A stretch of DNA of 64,000 nucleotides. It comes from an uncultured Prevotellaceae bacterium. Lineage in GTDB: Bacteria > Bacteroidota > Bacteroidia > Bacteroidales > Muribaculaceae. The notes beneath the pieces are model-generated. The model made no database searches and was not told the origin of the DNA. It saw nothing but the letters and a program-made list of their open reading frames with translations. The position numbers were made by a program, and so were the translations under genes. Within the stretch, counting starts at the first letter, position 1. Each line of letters begins with the position of its first letter. The stretch is from assembly GCA_900318255.1 (NCBI GenBank), contig ONJX01000013.1, positions 1 to 64,000 of the forward strand. Reading direction: 5' to 3'. Shown here piece after piece: positions 9,424-50,952 of this stretch.

Positions 9424-9495
9424 GGCCCATTCGTCTATCGGCTAGGACGCAAGATTTTCATTCTTGAAAGAGCAGTTCGATTCTGCTATGGGCTA
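9424..9495 (+). tRNA. tRNA-Glu (anticodon TTC), copy 1
   Basis: 72-nt cloverleaf: acceptor GGCCCAT/ATGGGCT with one G-U pair, anticodon stem CAAGA/TCTTG around loop TTTTCAT giving anticodon TTC, T-loop GTTCGAT, discriminator A, no encoded CCA. It is 38 nt upstream of rpsT in the same orientation. Confidence 0.95.
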
Positions 9496-9882: not shown

Positions 9883-9954
9883 GGCCCATTCGTCTATCGG
9901 CTAGGACGCAAGATTTTCATTCTTGAAAGAGCAGTTCGATTCTGCTATGGGCTA
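9883..9954 (+). tRNA. tRNA-Glu (anticodon TTC), copy 2
   Basis: Identical over all 72 nt to the copy at 9424-9495, 88 nt after the rpsT stop. The rpsT-tRNA gap holds a hairpin-forming stretch (TGAAGA/TCTTCA around TGGC/GCCA, about 9842-9876) that could mark processing. Confidence 0.95.
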
Positions 9955-47096: not shown

Positions 47097-47127
47097 TTGT
47101 GCATTTCAGCAATAATTATTATATTTG
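47097..47127 (+). promoter_or_regulatory. Promoter of the structured RNA
   Basis: TTG (47097-47099), a 20-nt spacer and TATATTTG (47120-47127). Predicted start near 47134, just before the first hairpin of the RNA. Confidence 0.65.
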
Positions 47128-47133
47128 CACTCT

Positions 47134-47423
47134 CCTTCAGCAGTGAAGGGGGGGTGACATAAAAGCGTTTGCTAACGTTTTTCCAATGGCGCTCGAACTC
47201 GCAAACTTCGAACCCAAGTCATTGAGAAACAACAGCAGATGCCTGTGCAAAGTGCGTAGCACTTTGCCCCATGTGATGGCTCACCGCGAGCTGTCGCATG
47301 CTGGGCGTAGCTATATAGCTTGCGTGGGTCTGCAGCATGTTTCTTGTAAACCAAGACTTGGGAGCATTGCGAGGCTTGAGCGTCGTGGGAACAAGAACAG
47401 CAGCAAGGTTCCCACGCTTTTTT
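47134..47423 (+). ncRNA. Candidate novel structured RNA, about 290 nt
   Basis: No credible ORF, but its own promoter and terminator. A long-range helix: GCGCTC-g-AA (47189-47197) with TTGAGCGT (47376-47383), CTCGCAA (47198-47204) with TTGCGAG (47367-47373), CCCAAGTC (47213-47220) with GACTTGGG (47355-47362), about 23 bp in all. Inside: GCAAAGTGC-gta-GCACTTTGC, GTGA/TCAC, GCGA/TCGC, and GCATGCTG (47297-47304) with CAGCATGT (47333-47340). Before it: CCTTCA/TGAAGG and AAAAgCGTT/AACGTTTT hairpins. I see no hallmark of RNase P, tmRNA, SRP RNA or a B12 riboswitch. It may be a free RNA or an attenuating leader of the operon starting 39 nt after its terminator. Confidence 0.55.
47384..47423 (+). terminator. 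Terminator of the structured RNA
   Basis: CGTGGGAAC (47384-47392) pairs perfectly with GTTCCCACG (47408-47416), then CTTTTTT. It begins immediately after the closing helix of the RNA. Confidence 0.85.
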
Positions 47424-47461
47424 GAATAATTTACCAGCCTCATCAGGGAATCGTGAGGGAC

Positions 47462-48190
47462 ATGAAAACTGAGAGAACTATGGATCCAGATTTGAATTTT
47501 TTATTACAATGTAAGAATGAGGATTTGAAAAATCTTGCTGATTACTTGGTCTATGATCCCAAAGATCAAAAAAAACGCATTTCAGAATCATTGACTGAAA
47601 CTATGCAGTATCGTAACTATTACCCTAATCAGATGGTAAAAGTTGTGCCTCAAATGGTAGAAGAACTGCATAGATTTGGAGGAAACACTGTAGTTAATTT
47701 TTTTAGAGGTAAAGGTGTTTCTTACAAAGAAATCTTATGTGATGTAAGTAAAAAACTGAAGGTCAACTTTAACAAAAATTCTTCTGTTGAACGAATTGAG
47801 AGCAACCTTCTACAAAAGGTGATGTATGATTCTCTTGACAACATGACTCAAGAAGAAATTCAAGAGCTTGGAGAAGACTATGGATTCAAGAATGCTGCGG
47901 ATATCAAGCGAGCAATAGGAGTCGGTAGCCCAATGTATTTTAGAGTCTTGATTCTTATATCACAGGCTTTAGTTAAAAGATTAGGGTTAAGTGCAGTAGC
48001 AGCTTTTTTAGGTAGTCGTGCATTGACCATTTTGGCTGGTCCGGTTGCATGGGTTGCTACAGCAATATGGGCGGCTTTAGACATAGCTGGTCCTGCATAT
48101 CGTGTCACAACCCCTTGTGTAATCCTTATTGCATCAATGCGAGCTATGTTAGGAATGAGCAATGAAGAGTTGTCAGAATATGCACAATAA
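47462..48190 (+). CDS. YaaW / UPF0174 (DUF3944) family protein
   Basis: About 242 aa from the first ATG (47462); 47480 (MDPDLNFL) also fits the family start and an in-frame GTG exists at 47453. It resembles E. coli YaaW along most of its length: N-terminal DUF3944-like DLNFLLQCKNEDLKNLADYL, central ELHRFGGNTVVNFFRGKGVS and YKEILCDVSKKLKVNF, a Gly/Ala-rich hydrophobic region (about 170-220) and SAYRVT-like GPAYRVTTPCVILIASMR. The biochemical role of the family is unknown; the hydrophobic part suggests membrane contact. AT-rich, unlike flanking genes. First gene of a three-gene cluster. Confidence 0.78.
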   Translation: MKTERTMDPDLNFLLQCKNEDLKNLADYLVYDPKDQKKRISESLTETMQYRNYYPNQMVKVVPQMVEELHRFGGNTVVNFFRGKGVSYKEILCDVSKKLKVNFNKNSSVERIESNLLQKVMYDSLDNMTQEEIQELGEDYGFKNAADIKRAIGVGSPMYFRVLILISQALVKRLGLSAVAAFLGSRALTILAGPVAWVATAIWAALDIAGPAYRVTTPCVILIASMRAMLGMSNEELSEYAQ

Positions 48191-48200
48191 TTTATTTTTT

Positions 48201-48235
48201 GAGGGGGGTATTAATATTTTTGGTTAATGCCCCTC
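48201..48235 (+). promoter_or_regulatory. Strong hairpin between the first and second cluster genes
   Basis: GAGGGG (48201-48206) pairs with CCCCTC (48230-48235), extended by ATTAA/TTAAT around a 9-nt loop. It is followed by TTTAA and then the next ATG. It could partly terminate transcription or stabilise the upstream mRNA. Confidence 0.6.
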
Positions 48236-48240
48236 TTTAA

Positions 48241-49083
48241 ATGACTATTACTATGAACATTTTACCGTATAGCAAACAATTAAAAACTGCCATAGAATTA
48301 TATGAGCAGAAAAAAGTTGAATGTGAGAAAACTTTGAATGAACTTAAACCTTGTGTTGATGCTATATATGATGTGAGGAAGACAGCTGTTAAAGCAATTC
48401 GCGCTTTTGAAGCCTTCTTACAGGGTATTACAAACCGTGATATTCAATTAGACAATAATATGGCTGAGATCATAAATATGATTCAATTTTTTGAAGAATG
48501 TGTCCAAGAAGAAGAACATCCAGATAAATTAGTAAAAAACAGTGATTATGCTACTGCCGTTGGAGCTTTAGTGGGTGCATTTGGAGGAACAGGTCTTACA
48601 GCATTGGCAACAACATTTGGCGCAGTTTCTTCATCAGGTGCTGCATTACATGGAGCAGCTGCAACAAACGCAATGTTAGCTTATTTGGGGGGAGGATCTT
48701 TGGCTGCTGGTGGTGGTGGTATGGCAGCAGGAGAAGCGTTGCTGGCAGCAGTTGGACCATTAGGTTGGGCTATAGCTGGTGTGTTTTTGACAACCAGTGT
48801 TATGTCTCGAATTCATAACAAGATTGATAACAAAATTATGTATGATGCGGCTCGTCATCAGTTGAGATTGACTATTGACTCTGCAAAAAGAAATATAATA
48901 GAAATTAAATGCAGTACTAAACATACTAAAAAACTTACTAGTGATATCTCCATTTCAAGTTTCAATGACATTCCTAAAGATTATACATTACTAACAAAAG
49001 AACAAGAACAATTATTATTAGATATTGTGAACAAGTGCAAATTGCTTGCTGATGAGATTGACAAACGTTTTGTGATTAAATAA
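48241..49083 (+). CDS. Coiled-coil protein with long glycine-zipper membrane region (unknown)
   Basis: 280 aa (an ATG at 48253 is equally possible and leaves more room after the hairpin). Residues about 10-105 are helical and charged, likely coiled coil. Residues about 105-190 are a Gly/Ala-rich hydrophobic stretch (GALVGAFGGTGLTALAT; YLGGGSLAAGGGGMAAGEAL; VGPLGWAIAGVFLTT) with GxxxG spacing, as in glycine zippers that insert in membranes. The C-terminal ~85 residues are again helical. No family assigned. Such architecture occurs in pore-forming and membrane-remodelling proteins; that reading is inference. Confidence 0.7.
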   Translation: MTITMNILPYSKQLKTAIELYEQKKVECEKTLNELKPCVDAIYDVRKTAVKAIRAFEAFLQGITNRDIQLDNNMAEIINMIQFFEECVQEEEHPDKLVKNSDYATAVGALVGAFGGTGLTALATTFGAVSSSGAALHGAAATNAMLAYLGGGSLAAGGGGMAAGEALLAAVGPLGWAIAGVFLTTSVMSRIHNKIDNKIMYDAARHQLRLTIDSAKRNIIEIKCSTKHTKKLTSDISISSFNDIPKDYTLLTKEQEQLLLDIVNKCKLLADEIDKRFVIK

Positions 49084-49105
49084 CAAATAACAAAATATAA
49101 TTAAA

Positions 49106-50614
49106 ATGGAGTGTTCTGATTATTACAAATATATTGGTCATATACTTATTCAGAATGATTTGCAAGCAAGACAAGATGCTTTTAATAAGGCTGTTGATAG
49201 TATTGTAAATACTGAAAGAATAAGTAAAGAAGCTGCATCAAAATGTTTATCAAAAGCTTTTGATGAACTCTCACTTCTGGAAGAAAGACTCAAGCAATCA
49301 TTTTTGGGAAGTCCTCAAACAAGACATGGTGAAGCTGCTGAAGAATTATATCGTTATTTTGATAATGCAGATAGGGCAATATATGGGAATAATAGATTAG
49401 TCAAAGGGGCATCAGGCAGAACATCCCCTGAAGATTTATTGATTTTTGGTAAAACCGCACAATTAAAATCATGCAAGTCTCTTAATGCAACCTTACTGGC
49501 CTGCATTGAGGATATGAAAAAATATGATAATGAACTGCAAATTATACCGAAAGACCAATATGAGTTATTTGATAGAATCTTGAAAGGAGACGTTGATGGA
49601 ATACCTGCTAAAACTGTGGAAGCTATACAGAATAAGATAGAAATGATTAGAAAACTCAATCCAGGGAGGAATATAGATGAGCTTTTTAGACCTCATAAAT
49701 TGACTTACGACCAAATTCATCCTAATAATAATTATCAGGAAGGTCAGTATGATTCAATAGTGGATGATAAAAAGAACGAGCTTTTAGATAAACACAAACA
49801 ACATGAGAAAGATATTAAGAAGAAGTCTAAAAGTGACAGAAATGATGCTAGAAACAAAGTTAAACCATCAATGTCAAGCTCTTTTAAGATTTCTTCCTTT
49901 AATGGTCTTTTAAGTGGTTCATTGTCATCTGTAACTCTTGTATATGCGAAACTTAAAACGGGCAAGAAAATAGAAGATTTTTCTGTAGAGGATTGGAAAG
50001 AGGTAGGTGTTAAGTTTGCTGCTGAAGGTTCAAAAGGTTTTGGGACATCTTTCGGAATCTATTGGTTGTCTAATAATAAACACGCTTTGAATTTAATAAA
50101 TAACGAAATTCAAGCAGCAAATACATTAGCAACTTCTGCTACATTATTTGTCAATACAGCTGTTACCATAGCAGATTTTTATAATGATTACAAAAAGGGT
50201 ATTATAAATAAAGATGATTTTATTGACTGCTGTTATTCTGCATCTATAGAGCAAGCCATAGTCTCTGCTGGGGCATTATTGGGTGCACCAATACCAGTAA
50301 TAGGACCAATAATAGGTGCTACGATTGCAAGATATACATATAAATTTGTTGCCTCTGCTGTCAATGAATACGATATAGCTTGCAGTAATTTAGCAAAAGA
50401 GCGTTCTCACATTGTTGATTTAAAGGTTGAACATGAATTTTCAGAGTATAAAAAAAAGATAACAAATAATTATGCGAGATATGATAAATTGTTGGAGAAG
50501 ACAGCACATCCATCAATTAATTTAGCAAGAACGTTTAGATTATGTGAAGAACGAGGTATCAATCCTGAAAGAGATCTACATGTTTTTATAGAGAGGTTTC
50601 CTATAAAAAAATAA
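49106..50614 (+). CDS. Large coiled-coil protein with C-terminal glycine-rich hydrophobic segment (unknown)
   Basis: 502 aa. Residues about 1-260 are helical, with a highly charged Lys/Asp/Glu stretch (KKNELLDKHKQHEKDIKKKS). The second half has several hydrophobic segments: FNGLLSGSLSSVTLVYAKL (about 272-290), LATSATLFVNTAVTIADFY (about 343-361) and IVSAGALLGAPIPVIGPIIG (about 388-407), the last with the Gly/Pro pattern of membrane-inserting helices. The C-terminus is helical. I recognise no family. 22 nt after the preceding gene, same strand and AT-rich composition, so cotranscribed. Confidence 0.7.
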   Translation: MECSDYYKYIGHILIQNDLQARQDAFNKAVDSIVNTERISKEAASKCLSKAFDELSLLEERLKQSFLGSPQTRHGEAAEELYRYFDNADRAIYGNNRLVKGASGRTSPEDLLIFGKTAQLKSCKSLNATLLACIEDMKKYDNELQIIPKDQYELFDRILKGDVDGIPAKTVEAIQNKIEMIRKLNPGRNIDELFRPHKLTYDQIHPNNNYQEGQYDSIVDDKKNELLDKHKQHEKDIKKKSKSDRNDARNKVKPSMSSSFKISSFNGLLSGSLSSVTLVYAKLKTGKKIEDFSVEDWKEVGVKFAAEGSKGFGTSFGIYWLSNNKHALNLINNEIQAANTLATSATLFVNTAVTIADFYNDYKKGIINKDDFIDCCYSASIEQAIVSAGALLGAPIPVIGPIIGATIARYTYKFVASAVNEYDIACSNLAKERSHIVDLKVEHEFSEYKKKITNNYARYDKLLEKTAHPSINLARTFRLCEERGINPERDLHVFIERFPIKK

Positions 50615-50700
50615 TCCTGTTTTCCGCAAAGGGACACAAGAAAATGTTAAACGTGAAAGCATCGAAGATGTGATATACAAACAAATAGAACTATCTAATT

Positions 50701-50910
50701 ATGGTACGAGGAAAGATTCTATTCAAATGCACTGGGTGTGGGAAGCGATTTTGGGACTTGGACATCGAGTATATGGCAACAATATATAGTGTTCCTCAAC
50801 GTTGTCCGTACTGCCACAGCTTCCGCACCCGCCCAAGCCGTTGGATGTCGTTAACAAGCTATAATTCCATCTACGAAAAAATTTGGGCGGATATGGAAAA
50901 GAATGGTTAA
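50701..50910 (+). CDS. Small zinc-ribbon protein
   Basis: 69 aa. Two CxxC knuckles (KCTGCGKRFW and RCPYCHS) spaced 23 residues apart form a typical zinc ribbon; the rest is basic and aromatic. Role unknown; zinc ribbons often bind nucleic acid. The gene lies 86 nt after the three-gene cluster in the same orientation and may belong to it, though its base composition is intermediate. The gap holds no terminator I can see. Confidence 0.65.
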   Translation: MVRGKILFKCTGCGKRFWDLDIEYMATIYSVPQRCPYCHSFRTRPSRWMSLTSYNSIYEKIWADMEKNG

Positions 50911-50952
50911 AACATTCTCTGTGTCCGACTTGTCCGACTTGTCCGAAGGCCA

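Follow-up and report, generated by a model that had tools for sequence, protein, structure and literature searches.

The RNA encoded at positions 47120-47458 of the 64,000-nt stretch of DNA analysed here (the window), which lies on the + strand together with the genes behind it, is probably one copy of a large, strongly conserved but uncatalogued family of cis-acting leaders in the Bacteroidales, whose members would serve as transcription attenuators. Comparison of the copies shows their predicted parts built up in the order promoter, 5' hairpin, GACATAA-AAAGCGUUU block, covarying rod, terminator-like arm with a U-tract, stem-loop and same-strand gene. An attenuator role, including control of the following operon by read-through of the terminator, is the most likely one, given a promoter of its own, a terminator-like hairpin with a U-tract, mutually exclusive alternative pairings, for which the evidence is statistical, and a gene downstream on the same strand. 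The preliminary description of this locus had missed both that the RNA belongs to a multi-copy family spread across the order and that a stem-loop downstream of the terminator is part of the element.

We consider the chances about even that these order-wide attenuator RNAs of 170-300 nt act as portable gates, placed before accessory genes that encode surface adhesins, defence systems, RiPP-like peptides and regulators. In this reading a local and a distant arm would contest the terminator strand with the loop of a hairpin after the U-tract, which would represent a new switch architecture, and all copies in a genome would answer to one common signal. While the RNA itself is absent from Rfam, its kind, the attenuator-type leader, is already known, and it is the copy number, the range of cargo and the downstream-loop design that are unusual. 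Cis-regulatory RNAs are poorly charted in the Bacteroidales, an order dominant in the mammalian gut, and a multi-copy leader family that Rfam lacks, standing before adhesin, defence and peptide genes, would offer direct access to a hidden regulon. Compensatory mutations can test the precise predictions that follow from the covarying downstream loop, and the family bears on the question of how premature termination is controlled in the leaders of variable Bacteroides operons.

Promoter, 5' block and rod

The element starts from a Bacteroidetes -7 promoter box, TATATTTG (47120-47127), which fits the pattern TAnnTTTG; the same box occurs within the upstream 160 nt of 79 of the 85 homologous copies, against 8 expected, bearing out the promoter first proposed at this site. 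A sigma-70 pattern scan cannot detect a box of this type and is uninformative here. The box is followed by a 5' hairpin, H0 (CCTTCA/TGAAGG; 47134-47149), a region that in homologues is more stable than shuffled sequence (mean z -3.0, n=69), and then by the conserved block TGACATAAAAGCGTTTGCTAACGTTT (47155-47180), near-invariant in both of the alignments A1 and A4. This block can form an AAGCGTT/AACGTTT hairpin or, alternatively, use AAAAGCGT for a closing helix with 47414-47421, which is 96.5% paired; the closing helix, AAAAGCGU/ACGCUUUU, draws on part of the terminator strand too.

The predicted fold of 47134-47423 beats all 200 shuffles in stability (z -4.8). It contains the three stacked long-range helices noted in the preliminary description, 47186-47196 with 47376-47386 (11 bp), 47198-47204 with 47367-47373 (7 bp) and 47213-47220 with 47355-47362 (8 bp), which enclose further helices and hairpins. 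Together with helices at 47225-47231, 47235-47239 and 47242-47244, they place the 5' strand of the rod at 47186-47244 and its 3' strand at 47326-47386, both from the fold and from covariation, around a variable apical part (47246-47324) whose local hairpins (47270-47282/47288-47300 and others) are reduced or missing in short-class copies. The helices of the window are taken from the single-sequence fold, as its 3' strand is partly out of place in A4, an alignment made with MAFFT. As an RNA structure the long-range rod is strongly supported by 25 full-length copies, in which 94.0% of rod cells are paired, against 81.8 +/- 0.5 when shuffled and 37-45% with the register slid by 1-3, and in which the covariation score reaches 0.407, against 0.180 +/- 0.008 in shuffles. 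The compensatory changes in homologues that the preliminary description had looked to as a check are abundant, with two-sided changes at 32 pairs of the rod in these copies. The open reading frames running through the element (60-79 aa) pass over bases that covary as RNA pairs, in keeping with the initial view that about 290 nt here hold no credible ORF.

The same initial view held the RNA not to be RNase P, tmRNA, SRP, 6S or a known riboswitch, and this too is upheld: among the Rfam 15 covariance models, which cover these classes, none matched the window RNA at gathering score and none was credible at E<=10, and no match to homologous copies overlapped the leader RNA at E<=1. A literature search, itself of incomplete coverage, turned up no description of it.

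Competing partners of the terminator strand

The local terminator of the window (47384-47423) is a hairpin of CGTGGGAAC (47384-47392) and GTTCCCACG (47408-47416), with a stability of -13.7 kcal/mol, followed by a C and six Ts (47418-47423); a pattern scanner overlooked it because its loop is 15 nt long. Within its 3' arm, GGTTCCC (47407-47413) appears from covariation to be a switch strand with three alternative partners, namely the local 5' arm (GUGGGA; z 7.3), a distant GCGUGAGG segment (z 7.0) and the loop of the downstream stem-loop (z 11.1). In the window, the long-range 5' arm of the terminator domain is GCGTGGG (47322-47328), which covaries with the 3' arm (z 7.0) as the alternative partner of 47411-47417. 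A second strand, X (TGTTTCTTG, with GTTGCTCG in relatives; 47338-47346), pairs with either 47225-47231 or 47391-47397, and both pairings covary. In the family, the 3'-half strand GUUGCUCG covaries with an AGCAAC word in the 5' half (z 3.8) and with a CGAGCAAC word in the 3' half (z 4.4). The intrinsic terminator reported in the preliminary description is found at its given place, with covarying arms, and the two related A-rich words that it pointed out, AACAACAGCAG (47228-47238) and AAGAACAGCAG (47393-47403), are present and correspond in the family to rival partners of the one strand GUUGCUCG. Such mutually exclusive, covarying partners of the terminator arm and of a second strand look like the signature of a conformational switch.

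Beyond the U-tract stands a stem-loop, SL-D (CCTCA...TGAGG; 47438-47458), whose loop GGGAATC (47446-47452) is complementary to 47407-47413. Across the family, the 8 nt right before the CGC-U-tract are complementary to this downstream site locus by locus, with a permutation z of 11-13 when arms are permuted among the 89 loci (48 different arms); the signal is gone with the arm shifted 4 nt upstream (z -0.6) and nearly gone with it shifted downstream (z 2.3). The stem of SL-D itself tests at z 12.4 (n=76), while a clear complementary loop is missing in a few copies, such as L101, L035 and L064. The element therefore ends not at 47423, as first drawn, but at about 47458. The locus had been put forward as a structured RNA gene or an attenuating leader; a covarying stem-loop past the terminator, followed by a same-strand gene, speaks for the leader and against the stand-alone gene, the main argument being that the element includes sequence absent from a transcript ended at the U-tract.

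We propose a mechanism in which, in the terminator fold, the 3' half would fold on itself, GUUGCUCG pairing with CGAGCAAC and either GCGUGAGG or GUGGGA pairing with the arm, and intrinsic termination would follow at the U-tract. In the read-through fold, the rod, of which the closing helix of AAAAGCGU with ACGCUUUU is a part, would let the 5' half capture the 3' half, so that the terminator could not form and polymerase would enter the gene. The balance between the two folds might be tipped by a ligand, by an RNA-binding or elongation factor, by temperature or by how fast RNA polymerase moves. Lying beyond the U-tract, the downstream loop cannot itself block termination, and its role would fall after read-through or in translation: it might occupy the freed arm next to the start codon, keeping the open state, and perhaps set access to that codon, a step that may act on transcription, translation or RNA stability. 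In the window, the leader would in this way gate a YaaW-type operon. The predicted fold of the window copy has the rod and the local terminator partly compatible, and the exclusivity of the two is thus not absolute there.

Distribution, cargo and locus history

BLAST with the window RNA finds one close copy (96%, in G049, a genome of the same genus), one diverged copy and otherwise only fragments, and covariance models were needed to follow the family further. In the diverged copy (G293) compensatory changes are visible, an example being CCCAAGTC/GACTTGGG versus GGTTAGT/ACTAACC. A model of the 5' 100 nt (R1), used with a cut-off of E <= 0.1 per genome, has matches in 268 of the 397 genomes sampled from the window's GTDB family, in 26 of 30 genera and often several times per genome. 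The full model (R2; 261 positions) has matches in 85 of the 344 sampled from the order and, beyond the order, in only four genomes of a class-wide sample of 295. With deeper scoring the window's own genome holds 12 candidate copies at E <= 0.01, mostly strong and each inspected together with the sequence on either side, and other genomes have 2-15 matches each; the weakest of all these (E > 1e-5) are to be taken as candidates. The copies come in two size classes, about 215-305 nt and 167-190 nt, with a common architecture. Those within one genome have usually diverged (about 80% identity where compared) with their structure intact, which argues that the RNA structure is under selection. In a pattern search of IMG/VR, two patterns had no match and a third matched one contig; an 85.7-kb viral contig of that collection bears the conserved 3' motif of the leader RNA (L113 554-584).

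The first gene behind the leader in the window, and the one putatively regulated, encodes a YaaW/MsyB-like protein with DUF3944 and Ubiq_cyt_C_chap matches (47480-48190). The operon had been thought to begin 39 nt after the U-tract, which holds for the first in-frame ATG (47462), but the likelier start is the ATG at 47480. The rest of the putative operon (48241-50910) encodes proteins of 280 and 502 aa without a Pfam match and a 69-aa zinc-ribbon protein. Elsewhere in the window, two tRNA genes with identical scores (9424-9495 and 9883-9954) lie about 460 nt apart.

Across the family, the downstream gene is on the same strand at 76 of 77 loci and on the opposite strand at one, whereas upstream neighbours divide 44 to 25; the gap from RNA to ATG has a median of 64 nt. 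The cargo consists of heterogeneous accessory genes without a shared pathway. A crude signal-peptide pattern is found in 48 of 89 downstream products, BspA-type LRR proteins (adhesins) account for 9 of 79, and lipoproteins are also represented, as are, in one or two cases each, a type III methyltransferase (R-M), anti-phage proteins, a peptidase C10, an FHA protein and others. In two genera the RNA stands before genes for CXXX-repeat radical SAM target peptides, and in a third genome before one for a radical SAM maturase (L094 2349-2636, L021, L032). A regulon devoted to defence alone was rejected, as PADLOC matches make up a minority of the cargo. Four similar small HTH-like proteins are encoded behind the RNA in different genomes (L062, L066, L070, L091), and at two loci (L130 580-645 and L133 1771-1839) the DUF805 RNA (RF03081) lies directly downstream of the leader, as if RNA devices were stacked.

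The RNA persists where the genes that follow it are exchanged. Collinearity between the window and G049 extends to 47482 and resumes at 50952, the YaaW-type operon in between (47483-50951) being replaced as a block by unrelated genes, and what they share before the break is the upstream flank, the RNA and up to 24 nt past the stem-loop. Similarly, L049 and L050 are 98% identical across the RNA and as far as +57, beyond which they diverge, and near-identical RNAs precede different genes in L015, L032 and L035. A comparison covering 101 genomes of the genus found the window's upstream flank to have orthologues only in G049.

Alternative readings and related systems

With its own promoter and terminator-like 3' end, the RNA could be read as a stand-alone, trans-acting small RNA gene that ends just before a functionally unlinked operon, a layout found in some Bacteroides sRNAs (PMC7366714); the strand bias of the downstream genes and the membership of the post-U-tract stem-loop in the element make this quite unlikely, and a leader that is terminated and also acts in trans may combine both roles. 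A strict ligand-binding riboswitch, with the conserved internal loops as its aptamer, would account for the many invariant unpaired positions and the bistable 3' half, yet we regard it as unlikely, since the heterogeneous cargo differs from that of typical riboswitches and hints at no ligand, and since the RNA has no relative in Rfam.

UpxY proteins are reported to prevent premature termination in the 5' leaders that lie upstream of upxY (PMC7819879), and such UpxY leaders belong to the capsule operons of Bacteroides (Chatzidaki-Livanis 2009, cited in PMC7819879). Processive antitermination by a specialised, UpxY-like NusG paralogue nevertheless seems improbable for this family. The RNA stands directly before a UpxY-family gene at three loci (L135/L150, L142 and L136/L151), but at neither the window nor most other copies, and other NusG-paralogue loci carry no leader RNA; G107, G596 and G431, with 8, 15 and 7 RNA matches, each show just one NusG-domain protein at the search threshold, and UpxY/NusG as a general partner was rejected on account of such RNA-rich genomes. 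Of the three adjacent loci, L150 has SrfB and Virul_Fac genes after the UpxY-family gene and L142 an AAA+ ATPase gene. The exchange of genes between the window and G049, with shared flank and RNA, unrelated operons and resumed collinearity, and the near-identical RNAs before different genes would suit an element that serves chiefly for mobility or recombination, as a portable 5' cassette behind which genes are swapped. This we hold to be very improbable, as plasmids and phages yielded no copy of the leader RNA, the swaps can be explained by ordinary recombination where a leader is repeated, and diverged yet structurally intact copies in the same genome point to selection as RNA. An attenuating leader remains the reading that we favour.

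Among known systems, the UpxY-dependent leaders come from the same order and likewise involve premature termination in 5' leaders, and three copies of the RNA stand directly before UpxY-family genes, whereas most copies are unlinked to UpxY and several hosts lack a second NusG-domain protein at the threshold used. JUMPstart/ops leaders are controlled by RfaH, ops being a short element. They too are portable leaders common to many horizontally acquired operons, but the leader described here is a folded RNA of 170-300 nt with its own promoter and terminator. HMP2_1881, one of the candidates of Fremin and Bhatt (2021; PMC8040213), is a Bacteroidetes element of 108 bp located near radical SAM genes. 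It recalls those copies that precede radical SAM peptides or maturases and, compared by description only, could be at most a fragment of the leader RNA. The DUF805 RNA is likewise cis-regulatory but is a separate 68-nt motif that does not overlap the leader and is absent from the window. Finally, attenuating leaders such as riboswitches, T-box and r-protein leaders resemble the RNA in their position between promoter and gene, their U-tract terminator and the exclusive pairings of their terminator strand; in contrast to them, the present leader belongs to no Rfam family, can be present about twelve times in one genome, in front of accessory genes that are unrelated, and has in addition a stem-loop downstream, the loop of which is a rival for the terminator arm.
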